64,000 nt of DNA from Pseudomonas sp. SDI (GTDB lineage Bacteria > Pseudomonadota > Gammaproteobacteria > Pseudomonadales > Pseudomonadaceae). The translations under genes were made by a program, and so were the position numbers. The stretch is taken from contig NZ_QETK01000010.1 of the NCBI RefSeq assembly GCF_003105155.1, positions 62,001-126,000 on the forward strand, read 5' to 3'. The notes under the pieces are model-generated. The model was not told the DNA's origin, made no database searches, and saw only the letters and a list, made by a program, of their open reading frames with translations. Below, piece by piece: positions 18,433-38,846 of the stretch. The number at the start of each line of letters is the position of its first letter. Position 1 is the stretch's first letter.

Positions 18433-18978
18433 ATGGATAAAATTAAAAGCGTTGTGCTTGCATCGTTGATTGCCGCTTTTTCGTTCGCAGCATCAGCAGA
18501 AACCTTTGAGCACGTCGAGCTTGATAAGGACAGAAGAAGTGTTGAGTATTCTGGTCCTATCAATAAGACAATCAATGCTATTAAGGAACGTAAATGGCTA
18601 GGTCAAACCAAGGACATGAATGGTGGAGTCGTATTCACCCCTTATGTGAACCCCCAGTTTGGTAAGAATAATACTGAATCCGGTGGTGCTATTATGGTAA
18701 CTGCTACATTCTATCTCTATGACAAACCTGTAAAAGAAGCTTTGATGGTTGCACGTCAAAGTCAAATTCCCGGTTTTGTTGAATTTTATGGTTATGATTC
18801 AAGAGAGCTTCAGTTGCACATAAGAATGATTGATGATGATACGTTTCAAGCTTTCTCAAGTGATAAGCAGTATCGGTCTCCTGAGGAGTTGAATACTTAC
18901 AGGAAGGTTGAAGGTTTCAGTGAAAACCCATATAAAAGTCAATTGAAGTCGGCTAGTGATAGCGGGATGGTGTTCTAA
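18433..18978 (+). CDS. Secreted protein of unknown function, tandem copy 1
   Basis: 181 residues with a signal peptide ending AASAE. The mature protein contains LDKDRRSVEYSG, AIKERKWLGQTK and FYGYDSREL. I do not recognise the family. Codon use and base composition are AT-rich, unlike the flanking core genes, which indicates transfer. The next gene is a near-identical copy of the same length. A weak hairpin with a T run follows the stop. Confidence 0.75.
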   Translation: MDKIKSVVLASLIAAFSFAASAETFEHVELDKDRRSVEYSGPINKTINAIKERKWLGQTKDMNGGVVFTPYVNPQFGKNNTESGGAIMVTATFYLYDKPVKEALMVARQSQIPGFVEFYGYDSRELQLHIRMIDDDTFQAFSSDKQYRSPEELNTYRKVEGFSENPYKSQLKSASDSGMVF

Positions 18979-19049
18979 GACTTTTAAAATTCAAAAGGGC
19001 TGTTTAGGTGGTCTTTTTGTTTTGTTGTGGGTTGAGTTGTGGGGGAGCA

Positions 19050-19595
19050 ATGAAAAAAGTTATCGGTTTGGCATGTTCATTAGTGTTGGCTGCTTCCGCT
19101 ATGGTTGCTAGTGCGGAAGTTTTTAATCATGTTGATTTGGATAAAGATAGGCGAAGTGTTGAGTATTCTGGCCCTATCAATAAGACAATCAGTGCGATTA
19201 AAGAGCGTAAGTGGTTAGGCCAAACCAAGGATATGAATGGTGGCGTTGTATTTACGCCTTATGTAAACCCCCAGTTTGGTAAGAACAATACTGAATCAGG
19301 TGGGGCGATTATGGTCACTGCTACATTCTATCTCTATGATGAACCAGTCAAAGAAGCTTTGATGGTTGCACGCCAAAGTGAAATTCCTGGATTTGTTGAA
19401 TTTTATGGCTATGATTCAAGAGAGCTTCAAATGCATATAAGAGTGATAGATGATGAAACATTTCAATCTTTCACAAGCGATAAGCAATATAGGTCTCCTG
19501 AAGAGCTGAATACTTACAAAATCGTTAAAGATTTTAATAAGGGCAGTTATAAGAGTGAATTGAAGTCTGCGCTAGATGATGGCACCGTTTTTTGA
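19050..19595 (+). CDS. Secreted protein of unknown function, tandem copy 2
   Basis: 181 residues, signal peptide ending VASAE, start ATG 19050 after GGGGGAG. It aligns without gaps to the preceding gene. About nine in ten residues are identical from LDKDRR to the EELNTY segment, while the signal peptides and the last 25 residues differ. A recent tandem duplication with diversification of the ends is the simplest reading. Function unknown; periplasmic or secreted location inferred. Confidence 0.75.
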   Translation: MKKVIGLACSLVLAASAMVASAEVFNHVDLDKDRRSVEYSGPINKTISAIKERKWLGQTKDMNGGVVFTPYVNPQFGKNNTESGGAIMVTATFYLYDEPVKEALMVARQSEIPGFVEFYGYDSRELQMHIRVIDDETFQSFTSDKQYRSPEELNTYKIVKDFNKGSYKSELKSALDDGTVF

Positions 19596-20750: not shown

Positions 20751-20776
20751 AAATCCTTGGTTTACAAGGAAAATTT

Positions 20777-20794
20777 TGGTGCCCGAGGGAGACT
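20777..20794 (+). repeat. attL core (copy of tRNA-Leu 3' end)
   Basis: TGGTGCCCGAGGGAGACT matches the tRNA-Leu 3' end at 38762-38780 in the same orientation except for one missing C. It marks the left end of the element. Confidence 0.85.
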
Positions 20795-20850
20795 GAAACA
20801 CATGTAATATGGGGCAATGGTTATGGGGTTTCAGTGGTTTGTGGTTTTTT

Positions 20851-20872
20851 ATCTACTCACAAATCTACTCGC
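20851..20872 (+). promoter_or_regulatory. Arm-type integrase binding sites, left end
   Basis: Two direct copies ATCTACTCAC and ATCTACTCGC, 12 bases apart, 57 bases inside the left att core. The same motif with the same 12-base spacing occurs near the right end, between integrase and tRNA. Confidence 0.7.
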
Positions 20873-21188
20873 TTTTTCTCGCGTGACTCCCATAGACGGC
20901 TCCAGATTAGGTAAATCGGCCCAGCCTCCTAGAGGTGGCAGGTATGCCGCTTCAGGTGGTGCGATGACAGCAATCCCTTTGTTTAGGTTGCCTGAGGATC
21001 GATGGCGTAGCACCATAGTTACGACCCTAGCACTCGTTAGTACAGATATATCGTGCTGGACAACTTTTGACGGCGATGTAGTAAAACTTGAGCTGCAATC
21101 GGTCAAGCGCTACCCTATTTCGGGTAGCACTCCTATGAACCGTTAAAGGCACTCATATTTTAATTGAAATTTCAGGCATGCGCTTAGT
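20873..21188. other. Non-coding left margin of the element
   Basis: About 315 bases between the left arm sites and the end of the ATPase gene. No gene with a ribosome binding site was seen on either strand. Confidence 0.4.
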
Positions 21189-23264
21189 CTAAGACGCCGA
21201 TTCAATCTCCCTCTGAAGTGCAAGCAATAGCCTATCTAAAAGGCGCTGCTGCAAGAGAAAATATGGCTCCGATATTTGTGAAAACTGCTTACCCTCAAAA
21301 TCCGAATCCAAGAACTCAAAAAAATTCTTGGTAGTAGCATTGTTCAAGTGGAGATGATCAACGTCATTCCTATAAACCTTAATTCTATGCAAAACAGGCC
21401 ACAAGCTTTCATAGGCAGCTTTAACATCATTCCAAAAATACTGTTTATTGCCCAAGTCAACCCCGTATTTTTCGACTGACTCGACGAAACACCTGTTCAA
21501 GGTGTTGATGAACACTGAAAAACTATCCTTGTCCCGAACAACTTTCGACTCGTGAAGTCTAACACCCTCAGGGAAGGAATTAGCCCCGAAAAGTTTGCAT
21601 GACTTTGCACCTTGGCTTATCAGTCGCTCTAGCACGCCAAAGTCTGTTGAAATTTCCTCGATCCTACGCTGCAACCAACTGTTTCGATTAGGAATATCAA
21701 TCAGAGGGTAAAGGAGTTCTCGGCCATCTTTTTTCATGGAATCGAGCGCCACTCTCTGAGCGATCACTGGGATATTCACCTCATAGCCGTACTCGCTCTT
21801 CCTAATTAGCTGATAACTGCAAAGATGAGAAATGAAAGCAGATTCCCTGGAAAGCTCTTTGAACTCTAGCTCCCTGCCTGTTGCCAGCAACTCAAACAAA
21901 TAGTACTCATCGGGGTAGAATTCGCGTATTTCGGAAATCGCGTGATTACTGTAAAAAGTTAATTCTTGATCGATTCGTGACTTTAACCCTTCAAAGGACT
22001 GAACATCCACCTTGAATGGATGATCCATATTTTCTGCCATGAATGAGTTCAAAGTGCTGCAAGCTTGACGAATGAGCAGCGGATGCCCACCGTACCAGTC
22101 ACGAATGTAGTTGCATGCATCAAACTCAAAAGCCATACCCATCCGCTTGCCAAGTTTGCGAAGCATCATTCGCGATTCTTCTTGACTAAAGCCGGTGAGA
22201 TACTTGTGAGGTACAATTCCAAACAGTGGATTCTGAACTCCATCAACCAAGTCTGATTCAACGACACTGGGGTTCACACCTGCTATTATAAAACTCAAGC
22301 ACTTGAATTGGCTTTGCGAGGACCACAAAGTCTGCCAGAGCTCTATGTAATCATCTCTCCAGTGCTTATCTCTCGGCGATATAAACGAAATATACTCAAT
22401 TTCGTCGAACATTATAGAGATTCTATGACCAGCATCTTTACAGCTTTTTATTAAGTCCACGAAACTTCTGGAGGCATGCCGCTCAGTATAATTACTTGCA
22501 GTTAGAGCGTTAAGTTTTTGAGATATCTCTGCAGCCAAGTCCTCAAGCAATTCAAACCAGCGCGCCTTTCGGATATGAGGCTGTTTACAGTCTACGTAAA
22601 AAACCGCTGCTACTTTTTCTGATTCACACAATCGCTTTATTTTAAACAGAAGCGAAGTCTTACCAGTTTTTCGAAGCCCGAATATCGCTTTGTTCTCACT
22701 ACGTCTGATGGAGTCGTAATACTCCATCACTGTACTCTGGCGTCCAAAAAAGTAAGTATCCTCAACGAGGGGTAGTGAATAGTTGAACAGGTCTCTCCCG
22801 AAAAATTTTTGATTAAGCCGATTCCTTACAAACCAGTTATCTCCCTTTGCAGCATCCAGTTCGGAAATTGAAAAAGGTACAATTATTCGAGCTTCTTGCC
22901 GTGACGATAGGAAGGAGTCAAGCCATTCGGCGACATTTTCATCGTCTGATACTAGAAAATAGTTTAATGTTTCAACTCTTCCTTTGGCTGGAGCAGCAGA
23001 AAATATCTGCTCTACCGCCTGAAGCGTTCTAGGCTCCATAGTTTGGAATGGGGAGTAGATAAGTAATATTTCATTTTCAAAACCATAAGACTCTTTGTAG
23101 TGGGGCTCTGGTGAAAGGAAGAAAATCGAGACCTCTGTATTGAATCCCCTAGTTCTTCTTCCCCATGTAACATCAAATCCATCTAGAAAAGGCAGTAGAA
23201 TATCTTTTTCTTTAGGATGACTTTTCAAATGCTGCTCTAGCACTTCAGTGCGTATGACCCCCAC
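21189..23264 (-). CDS. STAND-like AAA ATPase with C-terminal HEPN-type motif, putative defence protein
   Basis: 691 residues, AT-rich relative to neighbours. Residues 1-160: unrecognised domain. About 165-420: P-loop ATPase with FFGRQ entry (172-176), Walker A GLRKTGKTS (196-204), Walker B ISIMFDE (282-288), sensor-like FIIAGVN (325-331) and GGHPLLIRQ (392-400). This order is typical of STAND/AAA_35-like ATPases. About 430-520: winged-helix-like. About 525-691: helical domain with YRNDVDH (R632...H637), fitting the Rx4-6H RNase motif of HEPN domains. GTG start at 23264 follows AGGAGGT. Inferred role: an abortive-infection sensor whose ATPase senses a phage cue and whose HEPN domain cuts RNA. 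A regulatory ATPase without nuclease activity remains possible. Confidence 0.65.
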   Translation of the reverse strand: MGVIRTEVLEQHLKSHPKEKDILLPFLDGFDVTWGRRTRGFNTEVSIFFLSPEPHYKESYGFENEILLIYSPFQTMEPRTLQAVEQIFSAAPAKGRVETLNYFLVSDDENVAEWLDSFLSSRQEARIIVPFSISELDAAKGDNWFVRNRLNQKFFGRDLFNYSLPLVEDTYFFGRQSTVMEYYDSIRRSENKAIFGLRKTGKTSLLFKIKRLCESEKVAAVFYVDCKQPHIRKARWFELLEDLAAEISQKLNALTASNYTERHASRSFVDLIKSCKDAGHRISIMFDEIEYISFISPRDKHWRDDYIELWQTLWSSQSQFKCLSFIIAGVNPSVVESDLVDGVQNPLFGIVPHKYLTGFSQEESRMMLRKLGKRMGMAFEFDACNYIRDWYGGHPLLIRQACSTLNSFMAENMDHPFKVDVQSFEGLKSRIDQELTFYSNHAISEIREFYPDEYYLFELLATGRELEFKELSRESAFISHLCSYQLIRKSEYGYEVNIPVIAQRVALDSMKKDGRELLYPLIDIPNRNSWLQRRIEEISTDFGVLERLISQGAKSCKLFGANSFPEGVRLHESKVVRDKDSFSVFINTLNRCFVESVEKYGVDLGNKQYFWNDVKAAYESLWPVLHRIKVYRNDVDHLHLNNATTKNFFEFLDSDFEGKQFSQISEPYFLLQQRLLDRLLLALQREIESAS

Positions 23265-23509
23265 AGTACCTCCTTGTAAACCGCTTTGTTAAAAGCTACA
23301 TGAGCCTAACCTGTTTATTGACGTTAGGGTCTCCCCCAGCCTTAAGACTGTAAATATACAGTGGATTCTCAAGTTGGAAAGCGGTATTGGCCGCTACCAG
23401 CGGCGGGCCGAGGCGGTGAGTACCCTTGGAGATGTAATCTCACAGTGGATCGTGTCGAGTCTATCGACATTGGTAGATTCGCCAAGGCTGGCCGGACTAA
23501 TCTACAGGG

Positions 23510-24958: not shown

Positions 24959-25729
24959 TCATGACCGGGAAAGCGCTGAAGGTGGTGGACGATAATCGGG
25001 GTGCCCCTCAGTGCGCTCACCGTGGGCAGACGCCCAGAAGAATTTTGCGTGATGCTTGTAGACATTGGCGGCTTCCGATAGATCGTAGGCCATGCCATTA
25101 ACCACGCTCAACAGCAGACATATTATTTCGAGATTGTCTTGATAAAACGCTTCGATCTCATCATCGGTCGCCCAGACTGCTGACTCACCTTCAACGTTTT
25201 TCTGCGCCTGCGTATCCGACCCTGCCACAGCCGCTGGGGCATCTGGCAGTTGTCGGTGAGCCAGATGCTGGTGACGCAACGTCTTCAGTTTCTTCAGAAC
25301 GTCAAAGGCAACCCCACCCGCGCTATACTTTCCAATCAAATCCAATATCTGATCACGCCTAGGAATCAGCTCTTCCCTCATACGATCCGGGACGAATACT
25401 GAGCTGAGACCTAGCCGCCTAGCCCTGAACTGTACCAGTGCTTCAAAAAAATTCTTATCACGCAGACGGTCCGCAATCAGGCTCATCCTCACAGCTTGGG
25501 TGTTCGTATCCCATAAGCGCGTCAGAGCTAGAAGCAGCTCGCGACGCAGAGACAATCGGATGATCTGAAAAGTATGAGTAGCATAAGAAGTGCCTATACG
25601 TGAATGAAGATCCGCATCATATGCAGTAGGTCGCCATGTTTCGTGGAACATGATCGCCAACTCGATCTCCTGTCGAGCCGTCTCAACCATATTTCGTATT
25701 TTCTCGATCTCTTGTCGGAGGTTTTCCAT
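24959..25729 (-). CDS. AbiU2-like HEPN-domain protein, putative abortive infection factor
   Basis: 256 residues, almost entirely helical. The N-terminal part (FHETWRPTAYDADLH, then RIGTSYATHTFQIIRLSLRR) and the central LRHQHLAHRQ, with R152 and H158 fitting the HEPN Rx4-6H motif, resemble the AbiU2 HEPN family. Known: AbiU2 is one half of the lactococcal AbiU abortive infection system, and HEPN proteins are often RNases. Inference: stand-alone defence or toxin-like gene. Start ATG 25729 after AGGCGG. It is framed by related GGTTCGC repeats on both sides. Confidence 0.65.
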   Translation of the reverse strand: MENLRQEIEKIRNMVETARQEIELAIMFHETWRPTAYDADLHSRIGTSYATHTFQIIRLSLRRELLLALTRLWDTNTQAVRMSLIADRLRDKNFFEALVQFRARRLGLSSVFVPDRMREELIPRRDQILDLIGKYSAGGVAFDVLKKLKTLRHQHLAHRQLPDAPAAVAGSDTQAQKNVEGESAVWATDDEIEAFYQDNLEIICLLLSVVNGMAYDLSEAANVYKHHAKFFWASAHGERTEGHPDYRPPPSALSRS

Positions 25730-26241: not shown

Positions 26242-26658
26242 CTAGAACGCTGTCGGCGAGAGGTCCATGCTCATGCTGGTATCAATAGAGATCCGATATT
26301 TTTTGGTTGCGCCAGCATCCATCACAAACGACCTCTCCTTAAGCCCGCCTCCGCATAAGGACGTTGAGTTAACTCCGATAATGCGCTCACCAGCAGGCAG
26401 GTAAAACTTCGCGGTCTCTCCAGAACCAATTTCTGCAGATTGTTTGCCATCGATGTAAACCAGCGTATTGCATGCAGACCCCGTAAACCCGGTATCCCTG
26501 GTAACAACTAGCGTTCCATGACCAGTCGTTGGCTTGACCTGATATCCAGTCAACCTGGAAGTTGGTACTGGGTCAGCCTGGTTAGAAGGGATCGGGGAGG
26601 TGGCGCAACCGGCCAGCGAAGTAGCGGCAGCCAAAATTAATCCTGCAAGACGCATCAT
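26242..26658 (-). CDS. Small lipoprotein, possibly phage-exclusion type
   Basis: 138 residues with a lipoprotein signal peptide (lipobox LAGC). The mature domain contains GSGETAKFYLPAGERIIGV and paired cysteines (SACNTL, SLCGGG). It lies 67 bases downstream of the tail-assembly protein gene. Known: lambdoid phages often carry small lipoproteins near tail genes that block receptors against superinfection. Inference: a similar role here. The family itself is not recognised. Confidence 0.6.
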   Translation of the reverse strand: MMRLAGLILAAATSLAGCATSPIPSNQADPVPTSRLTGYQVKPTTGHGTLVVTRDTGFTGSACNTLVYIDGKQSAEIGSGETAKFYLPAGERIIGVNSTSLCGGGLKERSFVMDAGATKKYRISIDTSMSMDLSPTAF

Positions 26659-26725
26659 GCTTCATCCATTCTTAGCGCGGAAAGGAGCATGAAATTATCA
26701 CGCTCCCGCCGCGAATGAACACCCG

Positions 26726-27313
26726 CTACATTTGGTCTTCAGCGTAAATACCAGCACTGATGATAGCTCCGCCCCATCGCCTACGGCCGATGCAGATAGG
26801 CACCGGGTTTCCGCTAGCGGTGGTGTTTTTTGCACTACCAAACGCGTAGCTCGGGGTGTTTTCTGGGGCAGCGCTGTTGCTCAAGCCTCTTACCTGTGGG
26901 CTGAGCATCTGTACAACCCCACCAGCCGCCAATGCGATACCTGGTGCCATTGTGGCACCTCCGGTGAACGGGCTCGCGATAATCAAGGCGATCCCGATGA
27001 TGGTCTGAAGGAGGCCGGCGCGCTTGCTTCCATGGATGACTGGCACAAACTTGAGCTCTTTCGCTCCGCCCAGATCGAGCTCGTCCTCGCCGATGTTTTT
27101 ACCATTCTTGAAAACCGCGAATCGAAGCCCCTTTAGTTGGGCATCGGCAATGTCTTTGGCGAGCCCGGGGAAGTTCGCATCTAGCGCGCGTACGGCCTCC
27201 CTTGGGTCGCCTCGTCCGAGAAGCAAGTTGTACTCTTTGCCATATTTTTTACCCAAAAAACCGCCGAGTATGATTCTTGTTTTTGGGGTGTAGTTGATAG
27301 CTAAAGTAGACAT
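26726..27313 (-). CDS. Lambda gpI-like tail assembly protein
   Basis: 195 residues. N-terminal ubiquitin-like part (LGRGDPREAVRALDANFPGL), hydrophobic glycine-rich middle (IIGIALIIASPFTGGATM, then GGVVQMLSPQVRGL) and C-terminal SYAFGSAKNTTASGNPVPIC are the hallmarks of the phage lambda tail assembly protein I family. In phages it lies next to K and J, which are absent here. Its ATG overlaps the stop of the upstream gene (TAATG). Confidence 0.75.
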   Translation of the reverse strand: MSTLAINYTPKTRIILGGFLGKKYGKEYNLLLGRGDPREAVRALDANFPGLAKDIADAQLKGLRFAVFKNGKNIGEDELDLGGAKELKFVPVIHGSKRAGLLQTIIGIALIIASPFTGGATMAPGIALAAGGVVQMLSPQVRGLSNSAAPENTPSYAFGSAKNTTASGNPVPICIGRRRWGGAIISAGIYAEDQM

Positions 27314-29983: not shown

Positions 29984-31783
29984 TCATAGGCCACCGCCTT
30001 CGCTATCCATGGCGTCGGGATCGATCACATACAGGCGGGCAGACCCACCAGCAGGCAGGCGGTATTTCTTGGTTCTGCGGCTGTCACGGTCGGTATCGTG
30101 CTTGGCGAGAGCGGCAGCGCCTTCCAGCGCCTTCACGACACGCGCCAGCCCGTGCCCATGAGCGGCCTCAGTCAGTGCGGACTTGTTGAACAGGTACAGG
30201 CGCTTGGCGCCCACCACCTCCCAGTACCCGGCCCGGTTGAACACCTTGGTGTCCGGTGTCTGGTCTTCTACGTCCGAAAACCGGCTGGTGCCGTGCTTGT
30301 CGATGAAGTCGAGGATGCCGGCCAAGATCTGGCGGTCCTCGGCATTACCACCGCCCACCCGACTCAGCCACTCGCCGTACAGCAGTTGGCAGTCGGCCAG
30401 AGCGGCGCCCGGCGTCCACGGCAAGAGGCCGTAGGCAATGGCCATTTCGCCGGCCAGGGCAATCACCGCGAAGCGATCGGCCACCCGCCCGGCTTGGGCG
30501 TTGTCCTCAGCAAACTGGGCGCGGATACCGGCGAAGTCCTCGAGTAGGCCGGGGCGGTCATCGCTGGCCAGCAGCTTCTCCACGAATGCCGGCCCGATAT
30601 GCCCATGGTTTGCTCCCACGGCTACAGTGAGCTGGCGGTGGAAGTCGGCGCCCTCCAGTCCGTGCAATTCATCGAAGGCCCGGTGCGTGCGGGTGCCGGC
30701 GTTCACGTCCACCATGCGTAGCTCGGCGCCAGCGTGGGCAGCGTTACCACTGATGGCCGCGTGCTCAGATAGGGAGCGCTCGCCGCTGGAAAGCGCCAGC
30801 AGGCGCCAGCTCAGTTTCCCGCGGGCCTCCCGGTCACGGGTCATGGTGCCCTTGCCCTGGCCGTTGGCGAGCGAGTAGGCCATCTCCTGTACGCGCTTGG
30901 GGTCGGCCCGCTTGATTTCGTCCAAGGGCAGCATGGTGTCGTTACGGCTGGATGCCTCGATCTCCAGGCCGCCTTTGGTCATGTCCCACGACGCGGCGAA
31001 TATGCCTGGGTCACCCCATACGGACGAGCCGATCAGCTGCGCCAGCGACTTGCCGCTGGAACTGTCGCCGACCAGGTGAACACCACCACCCAGCACGCCC
31101 ACCAGGCTCAGCAGCGGGCCAGCGAGGGCGCAGCCAATGGCCAAGGTCAATACTGGGTTGCCCTCGCACTTGGCCGCTACTTCGGCCTTCCAGCCCTCTA
31201 GGCTGCCGCGCACGCTGAACAGGTTCTGCCCCTTGGCGCTGGCCTGATAGCGCACCTTGTCGCTGCCGATGGTGCGCCCTGGCAGCACAAAGGCACCTGA
31301 CTCGTGCCAGCCGGGCCGGCAGGTGGTGGCGAACACCTCTGCAGGACGCTGGTCCAGCAGGTACTCCATGAACTGGCCGCGCTTCTTCAACGCGATGATG
31401 ACGCCCATGCCGAACAGCGTCCGCCTGGCGTCCTCTCCGCTACCGCCGAACACCTCCATGGGAATGATCCACTCCTTGGGCCCGCTGTCGGTGAGCAGGC
31501 GCAGAAACCGGCCCTCGCTGCCGTCGTCGCTGTTGGTGGTGCGAGCGGCGACAGTCACGGGCGTGGATATCCACTCGTCAGTGATCGGGCGGTCGGCCTT
31601 GTCGTCGTCGCCGTCATCGTCGCTGGCGCTGCGCTTAAAGCCGTGCCAGTACACGCCAGGCTTGAGCCTGCGGCCTTTCTCGTTCGTGACCCAGTGCTCG
31701 TATACGCCCCAGCTCGGGCGATCAGGCTCGACCTTGGGCGCCTCTGGGCGCAGGTTGATGACGTTGGTATCAGGCGGGCGCAT
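29984..31783 (-). CDS. DUF927-type helicase of the satellite replication module
   Basis: 599 residues. N-terminal region of the DUF927 family followed by a P-loop: Walker A GDSSSGKS (about residue 240), Walker B MLPLDEIK, and SSRNDTMLPL. Such proteins act with a primase as the replicative helicase in satellites and integrated elements. Its start overlaps the end of the primase gene by 14 bases, so the pair is coupled. It lies next to the iteron array. Confidence 0.8.
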   Translation of the reverse strand: MRPPDTNVINLRPEAPKVEPDRPSWGVYEHWVTNEKGRRLKPGVYWHGFKRSASDDDGDDDKADRPITDEWISTPVTVAARTTNSDDGSEGRFLRLLTDSGPKEWIIPMEVFGGSGEDARRTLFGMGVIIALKKRGQFMEYLLDQRPAEVFATTCRPGWHESGAFVLPGRTIGSDKVRYQASAKGQNLFSVRGSLEGWKAEVAAKCEGNPVLTLAIGCALAGPLLSLVGVLGGGVHLVGDSSSGKSLAQLIGSSVWGDPGIFAASWDMTKGGLEIEASSRNDTMLPLDEIKRADPKRVQEMAYSLANGQGKGTMTRDREARGKLSWRLLALSSGERSLSEHAAISGNAAHAGAELRMVDVNAGTRTHRAFDELHGLEGADFHRQLTVAVGANHGHIGPAFVEKLLASDDRPGLLEDFAGIRAQFAEDNAQAGRVADRFAVIALAGEMAIAYGLLPWTPGAALADCQLLYGEWLSRVGGGNAEDRQILAGILDFIDKHGTSRFSDVEDQTPDTKVFNRAGYWEVVGAKRLYLFNKSALTEAAHGHGLARVVKALEGAAALAKHDTDRDSRRTKKYRLPAGGSARLYVIDPDAMDSEGGGL

Positions 31784-32660
31784 GGCGGCACCTCCAGGCG
31801 GCGAGGTCGTTGAAGTCGGAAAGGGTCAGCGGCGCATCGGCTGGCCACTCGGGGGAGGTCACCAGGCCACCGCATGCGGCTGCGGCGTCATGGGCTGCGG
31901 CGCGCCCCGGGTTGCCCTTGCCTTCGGCTTCGGTCTGGCGGTCGTCGTCGCCGGCGATGATGATTTCGGTGTTGGGGTAGTCGGCCCGTAGCGCCAGCGC
32001 CACCGGTTTGAGGTTTCCGGCGTTCATCGCGCAGGCGACGGTGTAACCGCTTTCGTGAAGCGTGGCGCCCGTTGCCCAGCCTTCGCAGATGCAAAGCGGC
32101 TTGCCCGGTGTAATGCGCCCCAGTGGCGAGTAGACGCCCTTGATCCGCCCGCCATACAGGAAGCGCTTGTCGCCGTCCGCAGCGATCCGTTGCAGGTTCA
32201 CCAACACACCACGGGCATACAGCGGGATCAGCAGGTCGTCACCGCGCTGGCGCAGGCCGTGAGCACGAATGCCCTTGGCGACCAGGTAGGGGTGGGCCGG
32301 GTCAGCACGGCGAGCGTCACGCCACCAGCGTTGTGCCAGGCCCGCGGCCTTGAGCTGGCGCCGTTGCCGTTCGGCCTCCCGCTGGCGCCGGGCCTGCTCG
32401 ATGCGCTGGCGCACCTGCTCGGCTTCGCGGGCGTCCACCGGTTCGCGGCTACACCATGTACTGGTGCCGCCCGTCTTCCAGCTCCCGAACGCGCCTGAGG
32501 CGATGCCATCGGCAAACAGGCAGTACCAGCCATTGAACGTGCCGGACTTGTCGCCGGGGATGTGGAAGCGGTGAATGTCGCCATCGTCCAAGGGCAGCCA
32601 GTCGAGCGGCCCATAGACCGACTGGAGCGCGTCACGGAAAAGGATCGTGGCATCGGTCAT
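31770..32660 (-). CDS. TOPRIM-domain primase
   Basis: 296 residues. The N-terminal part resembles the element-type zinc-binding/primase leader (FNGWYCLFADGIASGAFGSW). A long basic helix follows (RQRIEQARRQREAERQRRQ). The TOPRIM core has CEGWATGATLH (catalytic glutamate) and IIAGDDDR (acidic DxD). Synthesises primers for element replication. ATG 32660 follows AGGAGG and overlaps the upstream stop. Confidence 0.85.
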   Translation of the reverse strand: MTDATILFRDALQSVYGPLDWLPLDDGDIHRFHIPGDKSGTFNGWYCLFADGIASGAFGSWKTGGTSTWCSREPVDAREAEQVRQRIEQARRQREAERQRRQLKAAGLAQRWWRDARRADPAHPYLVAKGIRAHGLRQRGDDLLIPLYARGVLVNLQRIAADGDKRFLYGGRIKGVYSPLGRITPGKPLCICEGWATGATLHESGYTVACAMNAGNLKPVALALRADYPNTEIIIAGDDDRQTEAEGKGNPGRAAAHDAAAACGGLVTSPEWPADAPLTLSDFNDLAAWRCRHAPA

Positions 32661-37344: not shown

Positions 37345-38553
37345 TTAGGCGTGACGTTTGATAGTCGCCACGTTCACGCCAGCACACAGGGCGTCTACCG
37401 AGTCTGCCCACGTTTGCATCATTTCCCGGCGTTGCTCCAGGTAGTGCGCGTGGTTGTAGGTATGGCGGATCGAGTCTTGATCGCCGTGGGCAAGCTGTCG
37501 CTCGATCCAGTCGCGGTTGTAACCCCGGCTGTTGAGGCTGGTGCTCAGCAAGTGGCGGAACCCGTGGCCCGTCTGGCGTCCCTCGTAGCCAATCGTGGAC
37601 AGGGCCTTGTTCACGGTGTTCTCGCTCATCGGCCTGGATCGATCATTGCGACCAGGGAAGGCGAGGGGGTACGTGCCGGTAAGCTCATACAGGGTGCGCA
37701 GCAGCACCACGGCCTGACGTGGTAGCGGGACGATGTGAGGGCGCCGTGCCTTCATCCGTGCTGCTGGGATCGTCCAGGTCGCGGCATCCAGGTCGAACTC
37801 ATCCCAGGGCGCCAGTCGTAGTTCACCAGGGCGTACCGCTGTCAGCAGCAGCAGACGAATGGCGATCTTGCTGGTGATATCGCATTGCGCTGCCTCCAGC
37901 CTTTCCAGCAGTCCGGGTAGCTCGGCTTCGGATACGTGCGGGTGATGGCGAGTGCGCGGGGCGTGCGCGGCAACCACGTCCAGATCGGTGGCGGGGTTGC
38001 CCGGCACCACACCCTTGGCCAGCCCGAAGCGGAATATCTGGCTCAGCCATTGGCGAACCTTACGGGCGACGTTGAATGCCTCACGCCGTTCGATCTTGCG
38101 CACCAAGTCTACCAGTTCGGGGCGCTGGACTTCGGCGGCAGGCCGCTTGCCAATCACTGGAAAAATGTCCGACTCCAGGTACTGCAATGCCTTCGACGCA
38201 GTGGCCGGCGCCCATCGTGGTTGGTTGTAGGAGTACCACTCCCGCGCCAGAGATTCGACCGTCAGTGCCTGGATCGCAGCCGCTACCTTTTCCTGCTGTT
38301 TATAGGCGCTTGGGTCTACCCCCTGTGCCAGCAGCTTCTGTGCGGCATCACGGCGCTCGCGGGCCTGGGCGAGCGTGACTGAGGGGTAGGCACCCGCGGC
38401 CAGCATCTTCGCCTTCCCTTCGAATCGGTAGCGCACGCGCCACAGCTTGCTGCCGGTAGTGGTCACCTCGAGGCATAAGCCGTGAGCGTCAGCCAGGCGA
38501 TACAGCTTGTCCCGGGGTTTGGCGGTACGGATGGCAGTGTCGGTTAGCGCCAC
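37345..38553 (-). CDS. int: P4-type tyrosine integrase
   Basis: 402 residues. N-terminal arm-DNA-binding DUF4102 domain (LTDTAIRTAKPRDKLYRLAD, AAGAYPSVTLAQARERRDAA), SAM-like core-binding domain, then catalytic domain with arginine in LTAVRPGEL, HGFRHLLST (HxxR), LAHGD and the nucleophile tyrosine in the HTYNHAHYLEQRREMMQ region. It integrates the element into the tRNA-Leu 3' end 210 bases away and should bind the ATCTACTCAC arm sites. Confidence 0.93.
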   Translation of the reverse strand: MALTDTAIRTAKPRDKLYRLADAHGLCLEVTTTGSKLWRVRYRFEGKAKMLAAGAYPSVTLAQARERRDAAQKLLAQGVDPSAYKQQEKVAAAIQALTVESLAREWYSYNQPRWAPATASKALQYLESDIFPVIGKRPAAEVQRPELVDLVRKIERREAFNVARKVRQWLSQIFRFGLAKGVVPGNPATDLDVVAAHAPRTRHHPHVSEAELPGLLERLEAAQCDITSKIAIRLLLLTAVRPGELRLAPWDEFDLDAATWTIPAARMKARRPHIVPLPRQAVVLLRTLYELTGTYPLAFPGRNDRSRPMSENTVNKALSTIGYEGRQTGHGFRHLLSTSLNSRGYNRDWIERQLAHGDQDSIRHTYNHAHYLEQRREMMQTWADSVDALCAGVNVATIKRHA

Positions 38554-38600: not shown

Positions 38601-38648
38601 GTGAGTAGATTTCTGGACCTAACTCGTCCTACTCACAAATCTACTCAC
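38601..38648. promoter_or_regulatory. Arm-type integrase binding sites, right end
   Basis: One inverted copy of ATCTACTCAC (38601-38610) and two direct copies TCCTACTCAC and ATCTACTCAC (38627-38636, 38639-38648), the direct pair 12 bases apart as at the left end. Between integrase and attR. Confidence 0.7.
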
Positions 38649-38691
38649 ATACTTTCGGGCTTACAAGGGAATCACTGGGAACGGTGGGCAC

Positions 38692-38761: not shown

Positions 38762-38780
38762 TGGTGCCCCGAGGGAGACT
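38762..38780 (+). repeat. attR core (3' end of tRNA-Leu)
   Basis: TGGTGCCCCGAGGGAGACT, the complement of the tRNA-Leu 3' end including CCA. Direct repeat of 20777-20794. The intact tRNA is on this side. Confidence 0.85.
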
Positions 38781-38846
38781 CGAACTCCCACTCCTTTCGA
38801 AAACGGATTTTGAATCCGCCGCGTCTACCAATTCCGCCATCAGGGC
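38762..38846 (-). tRNA. tRNA-Leu (anticodon CAA)
   Basis: 85 bases on the minus strand from GCCCTGA to GGGGCACCA with encoded CCA. The anticodon stem-loop GGATTCAAAATCC carries CAA, and there is a long variable arm typical of leucine tRNAs and a TTCGAGTC T-loop. The acceptor arms pair apart from one G-U. Serves as the integration site of the element, and its 3' end remains intact. Confidence 0.95.

Follow-up and report, generated by a model that had tools for sequence, protein, structure and literature searches.

A candidate single-gene anti-phage STAND protein with a HEPN-like C-terminus in a phage satellite of Pseudomonas sp. SDI

What does a large, AT-rich gene for a STAND-like ATPase do at the margin of an integrated phage satellite? 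The question is raised by a stretch of 64,000 nucleotides from Pseudomonas sp. SDI (RefSeq assembly GCF_003105155.1, contig NZ_QETK01000010.1, positions 62,001 to 126,000 of the forward strand), which was analyzed at its full length and is here called the window. It contains a 691-codon open reading frame on the minus strand (the STAND gene; Table 1) that a first-pass annotation had proposed to be a single-gene abortive-infection system, possibly of an undescribed architecture. We consider it probable, at better than even chances, that the gene, as cargo of a phiAH14b-type satellite, encodes a single-gene anti-phage (abortive-infection) protein. The best reading of its layout is a conserved N-terminal module, a STAND switch and an exchangeable C-terminal effector. 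This candidate function is supported by the STAND fold, the conservation of R632, H637 and E595, purifying selection, the cargo position and the genomic contexts of relatives.

Protein architecture and conservation

The STAND gene starts with GTG at 23264 and is present as a single copy in its own genome. The first-pass annotation gave no strand, but what it had read from the letters holds: both Walker motifs, the GGHP motif and R632-NDVD-H637 lie at the residues that it named, and an AAGGAGG ribosome-binding site stands 4 nt before the start codon.

Relatives of the protein form two clades. Clade A comprises 13 alignment rows (the window protein, L002-L009, L022, L023, L037 and L038), which can be aligned along their full length; L003-L005 are nearly identical, L009 is partial, and counts out of 13 include the window's own protein. 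Clade B has members on Klebsiella plasmids, in E. coli, on viral-collection contigs, on a Deinococcus plasmid and elsewhere. Common to both clades are the N-terminal module, the STAND region and the winged helix, which together make up the first about 500 residues. Left out of structure prediction were L005, L022, L023 and those clade B rows that come from genomes or annotated records.

The middle of the protein is supported as a STAND-type switch with an NLR-like predicted fold. Pfam ATPase_2 matches residues 193-399 (E 7.9e-10), K202 and T203 of Walker A are invariant in the 12 clade A rows that cover them (12/12), and D287 and E288 of Walker B, as well as G393, H394 and P395 of the GxP-type GGHP motif, are kept in 13/13. 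In the full-length model (mean predicted local distance difference test score, pLDDT, 88.5; predicted template modelling score, pTM, 0.82) a winged helix follows the nucleotide-binding domain. When compared by VIA-align, residues about 157-519 resemble the archaeal ATPases 2qen (Z 21.7; residues 158-507, 321 aligned, 4.5 A) and 2fna (Z 20.0) and the NLR-type proteins NRC4, CED-4, RPP1 and ROQ1 (Z 18-19), with Z 19.0 for the NRC4 resistosome (9cc9; 308 aligned, 4.4 A) and Z 18.8 for 2a5y (299 aligned, 4.3 A). The earlier call of a STAND-like ATPase is borne out by these motifs and by a predicted fold that matches archaeal ATPases and NLR resistosomes at Z 18-22.

Pfam, NCBIfam and PADLOC hold no family-specific model, and their matches at E<=0.01 are confined to the ATPase part. 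The Avs models in PADLOC gave no match at E<=1, and the matches there were PDC-S60, PDC-S01 and Csx21 only; PDC-S60, PDC-S01 and NCBIfam DS41_1 were rejected as names, as they touch only residues about 175-271. A whole-protein sequence search of the PDB returned nothing at E<=1, and PHROGs gave weak matches to unnamed families only (best 0.044 for the window protein and 0.0008 for the Klebsiella relative).

For the C-terminal domain, which is all helical when modelled separately (pLDDT 90.4), we lean towards a HEPN-like, predicted RNase domain. The published definition of HEPN domains places Rx4-6H where helix 3 ends; the residue following the R is typically polar (N, D or H), and many families add an acidic residue in helix 2, often within Ex3[KR] (PMC3710099). 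The protein contains five R-x4-6-H pairs, and R632/H637 is the sole one conserved in all 13 clade A rows, as the first-pass reading would have it. Residue 633 is N or H in 13/13 rows; E595, in helix 579-603, is likewise kept in 13/13, and residue 599 is K in seven, N in five and I in one, the Ex3[KR] form holding in 7/13. In the predicted model R632 lies near the end of helix 621-635 with H637 just after it, and we provisionally assign this helix as HEPN helix 3. When the identities of the 104 invariant columns were shuffled, an invariant Rx4-6H fell in the C-terminal domain in 0.9% of cases and anywhere in the protein in 24%. We lean to HEPN because these four positions are kept throughout clade A and the helices are placed as in the published definition; the call rests on sequence and helix layout, since the C-terminal model finds no significant match among solved structures.

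The C-termini of the two clades cannot be aligned with each other (12-16% identity; hhalign probability 0.7%, E 0.08), and on account of that probability a claim of homology between them was dropped. The clade B C-terminus has R-x3-H in 15/15 alignment rows and a further R making R-x4-H in only three, so we do not call it HEPN. Profile searches were not convincing for the C-terminus of either clade A (best E 0.012, to pyrin and then hemolysin) or clade B (best E 0.38). On contigs L035 and L036 the relatives have an extended N-terminus and, as read by eye, stop after the winged helix. Since the front aligns across clades, the C-termini differ and these two end after the winged helix, the family suggests a constant front with an exchangeable tail. 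A C-terminus that differs while the first about 500 residues align is as expected of an exchangeable effector.

In L035 (8757-11045), L036 (357-2858) and L047 (9671-11980) the N-terminal module and STAND region are preceded by extra domains, by eye cold-shock-type-looking in L035 and L047 and with TPR-like repeats in L035 and L036; these three were left out of the alignments for that reason.

The N-terminal module is modelled as two helices and a beta hairpin followed by alternating strands and helices. Residues 1-160 have no Pfam match at E<=10, in line with the remark in the first-pass annotation that they resemble nothing known, and a profile search of the module was not convincing (best E 0.14). 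Read for its order only, the way strands and helices succeed one another in residues 1-156 is reminiscent of a restriction-endonuclease-like core. It could thus be that the polarity is the reverse of ours, with the N-terminal module as effector (a diverged nuclease-like fold) and the C-terminal helices as sensor or assembly domain. Avs proteins are built in this way, with an N-terminal effector, a central STAND region and C-terminal TPR-type sensor repeats, and the C-terminal domain is the part that varies most between our clades, as sensors also do. However, no conserved PD-(D/E)xK pattern is seen in the module, whose conserved residues include E65, R79 and R96 (12/12 covering clade A rows), and the C-terminal motif fits the HEPN catalytic pattern in every clade A row. 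We regard a reversed polarity as improbable and keep the HEPN-like domain as the candidate effector.

Genomic contexts and distribution of relatives

Seven clade A loci are from Bacillota, and six of them have upstream sequence that can be evaluated (L005 is not counted, as its contig starts 117 bases upstream). Restriction-type genes precede 5/6 of these on the same strand. L003 and L004, close relatives of each other, lie downstream of type III mod-res genes, L006 downstream of type I S and M genes, L007 downstream of type I R-M-S genes with a 208-aa open reading frame between, and L053 downstream of a DUF4011-helicase-MTES_1575-DUF3320 gene with a Vsr-like nuclease part. Between L003:3735-7969 and L004:3573-7969, where the STAND genes are near-identical, res matches at E 0 and mod less fully at 2.3e-248, as if res and the STAND gene stayed in place while the specificity gene changed.

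These operons are an argument for the strongest rival, in which the protein would be a restriction guard of the PrrC kind: a latent RNase sensing failure or overload of a restriction system, through cues such as an anti-restriction protein or unmodified DNA ends, and not a phage structural protein. Satellite copies would then guard the host's restriction system. A precedent is described for PrrC, which its type I system holds inactive until Stp of T4 intervenes (PMC3710099). However, a search with the relatives' restriction genes found none adjoining the STAND gene in the window or at L037, and no restriction genes were found in the annotation around the E. coli clade B copies. PrrC also couples its RNase to an ABC ATPase, not to STAND, and because the restriction types differ among the Bacillota loci no single partner is fixed. 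We judge a guard role unlikely for the window protein, although it could hold for the Bacillota copies without holding in the window's satellite.

Other relatives lie on mobile elements, and the wider family occurs on satellites, viral-collection contigs and conjugative plasmids. L037 adjoins an integrase on a contig with a P2-type replication gene A (GPA), and the clade B locus L042 is near a phage tape-measure-type gene. A DNA search with the Klebsiella clade B gene, which finds near copies only, located clade B in 5/5426 E. coli genomes. All 5/5 copies, which are probably one lineage, occupy the int-psu interval of a P4-like element located at the tRNA-Sec gene, and we take this interval to be the anti-phage hotspot of P4. 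The same order of int, clade B gene and psu is found on contig L026. A hotspot of anti-phage genes has been reported from P4-like satellites (PMC9122126). The clade B contexts given here come from the minority of its loci whose neighbours were classified.

The STAND gene is foreign to its surroundings. Its GC content is 42.5% compared with 61.2% in the satellite core, which agrees with the AT-richness noted at first pass, and an 84% identical gene in Pseudomonas oryzihabitans (L002:8001-10076) has a GC content of 40.6% in flanks of 65.9%. Relative to this gene the nonsynonymous divergence (dN) is 0.10, with synonymous divergence (dS) saturated beyond calculation; the N-terminal part alone gives dN 0.123 and dS 1.87. 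Judged from this comparison, the STAND gene is under purifying selection.

The distribution is sparse. The gene was found in 0/193 other relatives searched, its own copy being the only one among 194. With the own or seed genome included, matches at E<=0.001 occur in 6/369 genomes of the class sample (three of the six being short matches), in 4/398 of the phylum sample and in 2/398 of a sample from the phylum of a Bacillota relative. L013, L014 and L015 were dropped as short matches. Neither the window protein nor the Klebsiella protein matched any protein of the INPHARED phages at E 1e-5.

The satellite and its distal slot

An integrated phiAH14b-type phage satellite, known here from its genes, is well supported by attachment repeats, an integrase beside the tRNA gene, and the gene order and satellite-like description of phiAH14b. 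The 24-base 3' end of the tRNA-Leu gene is matched at the distal repeat, and at no third place in the window on either strand with at least 17 bases alike. Between the satellite ends lie genes for Rha, a Toprim primase, DUF927, tail assembly protein I and a lipoprotein. phiAH14b (KU708005) is the sole INPHARED record with a near DNA match (78% identity over 33% of the queried 18.2 kb) and its integrase, Rha, Toprim primase, DUF927, tail assembly I and lipoprotein genes follow one another as in the window; published work describes it as a satellite-like phage, apparently using phiAH14a capsids (PMC4936722). The satellite location and the place of the STAND gene at the margin opposite the integrase, both claimed at first pass, are thereby confirmed, the 3' end of the gene lying ~0.4 kb inside the distal tRNA-Leu repeat.

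In contrast to the satellite, phiAH14b holds in its distal slot a gene annotated as histidine kinase and neither the STAND gene nor AbiU2. DUF927 relatives at E<=1e-50 were found in 38/194 relatives, own included, and the 11 loci with the closest genes (59-92% identity) were inspected downstream, over 14 kb in nine and over 11.6 and 5.1 kb at two contig ends. Within these stretches, relatives of the STAND gene or AbiU2 occurred in 0/11. The distal end is probably a variable cargo slot, given that its genes differ from those of phiAH14b and are absent from the 11 sibling stretches.

Weighing the function

Several results weigh against an anti-phage STAND-HEPN protein. In VIA-align the ORC2 protein 1w5t reaches Z 19.2 to the same region, so the predicted fold match is not STAND-specific and by itself cannot separate STAND from ORC-type ATPases. 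Residues 529-691 have no Pfam match at E<=10, to a HEPN profile or otherwise, and the C-terminal model gave nothing at E<=0.001 either in Foldseek against the PDB or in a BFVD fold search. Unrelated helical bundles fill its best VIA-align rows, at Z up to 6.0. On the side of HEPN, seven entries for HEPN-type toxins or their complexes stand among the 50 rows shown (5yep, 6m6u, 6m6w, 7bxo, 7ae6, 8xeh and 8xdj), at Z 4.0-5.1, which falls within noise as the tool describes it; 6m6u, 6m6w and 7bxo, titled MntA-HpeT or toxin-antitoxin, are presumably HEPN-type (HepT) toxin complexes. The best of these entries, 5yep (Z 5.1, root-mean-square deviation 3.7, 101 aligned; model 43-166 to chain 2-128), does not obviously align the motifs in register. 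It is called a HEPN toxin in PMC11087260. The HEPN-type C-terminus proposed at first pass stands as a conserved motif and helix layout, the fold comparison speaking neither for nor against it. No defence gene was recognised beside two clade A relatives: L002 is flanked by pntB and a curlin-repeat gene, both housekeeping-type neighbours, and L008 lies downstream of LuxE and LuxC genes. The proposed defence or mobile setting of homologues holds for many of them (restriction genes, P4-like element, integrase) and not for these two. Finally, the clade B gene is annotated as two pieces in 2/5 E. coli copies, L051 (C5) and L052 (UPEC-245U).

L002 and L008, together with the presence of the family on satellites, viral-collection contigs and conjugative plasmids, would also suit a satellite or host gene that has no anti-phage role and regulates the satellite, its helper or plasmid maintenance. 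We hold this to be very unlikely: the gene is sporadic in satellites, as its absence from sibling DUF927 stretches and other relatives illustrates, and the family recurs after unrelated restriction systems in Bacillota. The anti-phage function remains the reading that we prefer.

In the mechanism that we propose, the STAND switch would hold the protein off until an infection cue is read, most likely by the N-terminal module common to both clades. The cue would trigger ATP-dependent oligomerisation, as in NLR-type STAND proteins, which would bring the C-terminal HEPN-like domains together as dimers. These would then cut RNA by means of R632 and H637, and the cell would stop growing or die before the phage matures.

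Relation to known systems

HEPN-STAND fusions in bacteria were predicted in 2013 with a proposed function in conflict (Anantharaman et al., PMC3710099), so the general STAND-HEPN idea is not undescribed. As far as they are described there, those fusions, like the window protein, join HEPN to a STAND NTPase, but with the HEPN domain N-terminal and sometimes with cold-shock parts, and a table lists STAND with TPR and S1. Going by these descriptions, the window protein is set apart by a HEPN-like domain that is C-terminal, after the winged helix, and by a different N-terminal module. The undescribed architecture suggested at first pass therefore does not extend to the fusion as such; the parts for which the libraries searched hold no specific model are the N-terminal module and the differing C-terminal domains. 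The accessions of the E. coli and Klebsiella clade B proteins, the Deinococcus relative and the integrase next to the Klebsiella copy were in no paper found, which cannot show that the family is unpublished.

Other systems share parts of the layout. Two-gene STAND systems with GT4 or HEPN effectors also tie STAND NTPases to HEPN in predicted counter-invader systems, but by description comprise two genes, one with an inactive STAND, whereas the window has one gene with intact Walker motifs (PMC8195603). Avs (AVAST) and other bacterial NLR-like STAND proteins likewise combine a STAND switch with a fused effector; unlike Avs, the window protein has 691 aa, no repeats seen and a C-terminal effector candidate, and a single helical domain of about 173 residues follows its winged helix. 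In PrrC and RloC a C-terminal HEPN RNase is also controlled by an NTPase, and PrrC sits beside restriction genes, but that NTPase is described as an SbcC/Rad50-like ABC ATPase (PMC3710099) and not ATPase_2/STAND. Tha of Staphylococcus prophages is likewise a lone gene on an element, with a product that ends in an R-N-x3-H HEPN RNase (motif R-N-S-I-M-H; the H270A mutant loses protection), and differs in having 301 aa, no discernible N-terminal domain and tail proteins as trigger (PMC11087260). More broadly, remote HEPN similarity is reported in 6/21 validated systems (PMC9519451), and of the 31 further systems that were validated following DefensePredictor, HEPN domains occur in four and P-loop NTPase domains in seven (PMC13092281).

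More tentatively, and at well below even chances, the family as a whole may be an inverted-layout NLR-like immune family, in which a conserved N-terminal sensing module and a STAND switch take different RNase-like C-terminal effectors (Rx4H and Rx[DE]AH types), guarding restriction within Bacillota operons and travelling alone as cargo on satellites of the P4 and phiAH14b types. If true, the anti-phage reading would make available a small NLR-like system encoded by one gene, whose sensor, switch and RNase are separable, together with a natural set of relatives that are paired with restriction systems or stand alone on satellites. This would open two questions: is one and the same STAND switch a guard of restriction or a direct phage sensor, and do satellites select their cargo to act against competitors of the helper?

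Feature coordinates and further observations

Table 1 Features of the STAND gene and of the satellite, in window positions
Feature	Position	Strand	Basis
STAND protein with HEPN-like C-terminus, 691 aa	21189..23264	-	Open reading frame, motifs, Pfam, model
Ribosome-binding site AAGGAGG, end 4 nt upstream of GTG	23269..23275	-	Read from sequence
N-terminal module, residues 1-156	22797..23264	-	Model secondary structure, conservation
STAND nucleotide-binding and winged-helix region, residues 157-515	21720..22796	-	Pfam, VIA-align
Walker A GLRKTGKTS, residues 196-204	22653..22679	-	Sequence, conservation
Walker B, residues 282-288, ending D287-E288	22401..22421	-	Sequence, conservation
GGHP motif, residues 392-395	22080..22091	-	Sequence, conservation
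C-terminal all-helical HEPN-like domain, residues 519-691	21192..21710	-	Separate model
R632-x4-H637 motif (R632-NDVD-H637)	21354..21371	-	Kept in 13/13 clade A rows
E595, acidic residue in the domain's second long helix	21480..21482	-	Kept in 13/13 rows
AbiU2 HEPN protein, second HEPN-type cargo gene in satellite	24959..25729	-	Pfam PF18734, E 9.4e-16
Lipoprotein (phrog_890), last gene common to phiAH14b before variable end	26242..26658	-	
DUF927 primase/helicase of satellite	29984..31783	-	
Toprim primase of satellite	31770..32660	-	
Tyrosine integrase of satellite, adjoins tRNA	37345..38553	-	Pfam, PHROG
tRNA-Leu(caa), attachment site; repeat is 38762-38785	38762..38846	-	
Distal attachment repeat of satellite, 18/24 bases as tRNA-Leu 3' end	20776..20799	.	
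Repeat near distal end (family D3)	20853..20881	+	
Matching D3 repeat near integrase end	38629..38657	+	

The AbiU2 gene shares the satellite cargo slot with the STAND gene and lies 1.7 kb upstream of it, and the D3 repeat at the distal end is a possible arm site of the integrase. Just outside the satellite, two tandem paralogous genes (18433-19595, plus strand) are AT-rich, 86% identical over 300 nt and without a Pfam match. The satellite retains a lambda-type tail assembly protein I and the lipoprotein (26242-27313, minus strand), with no further structural gene seen among the satellite genes scanned. The pair also occurs in phiAH14b, and a relative of tail assembly I in 3/11 sibling loci; perhaps the two have a tail-tip or exclusion function.

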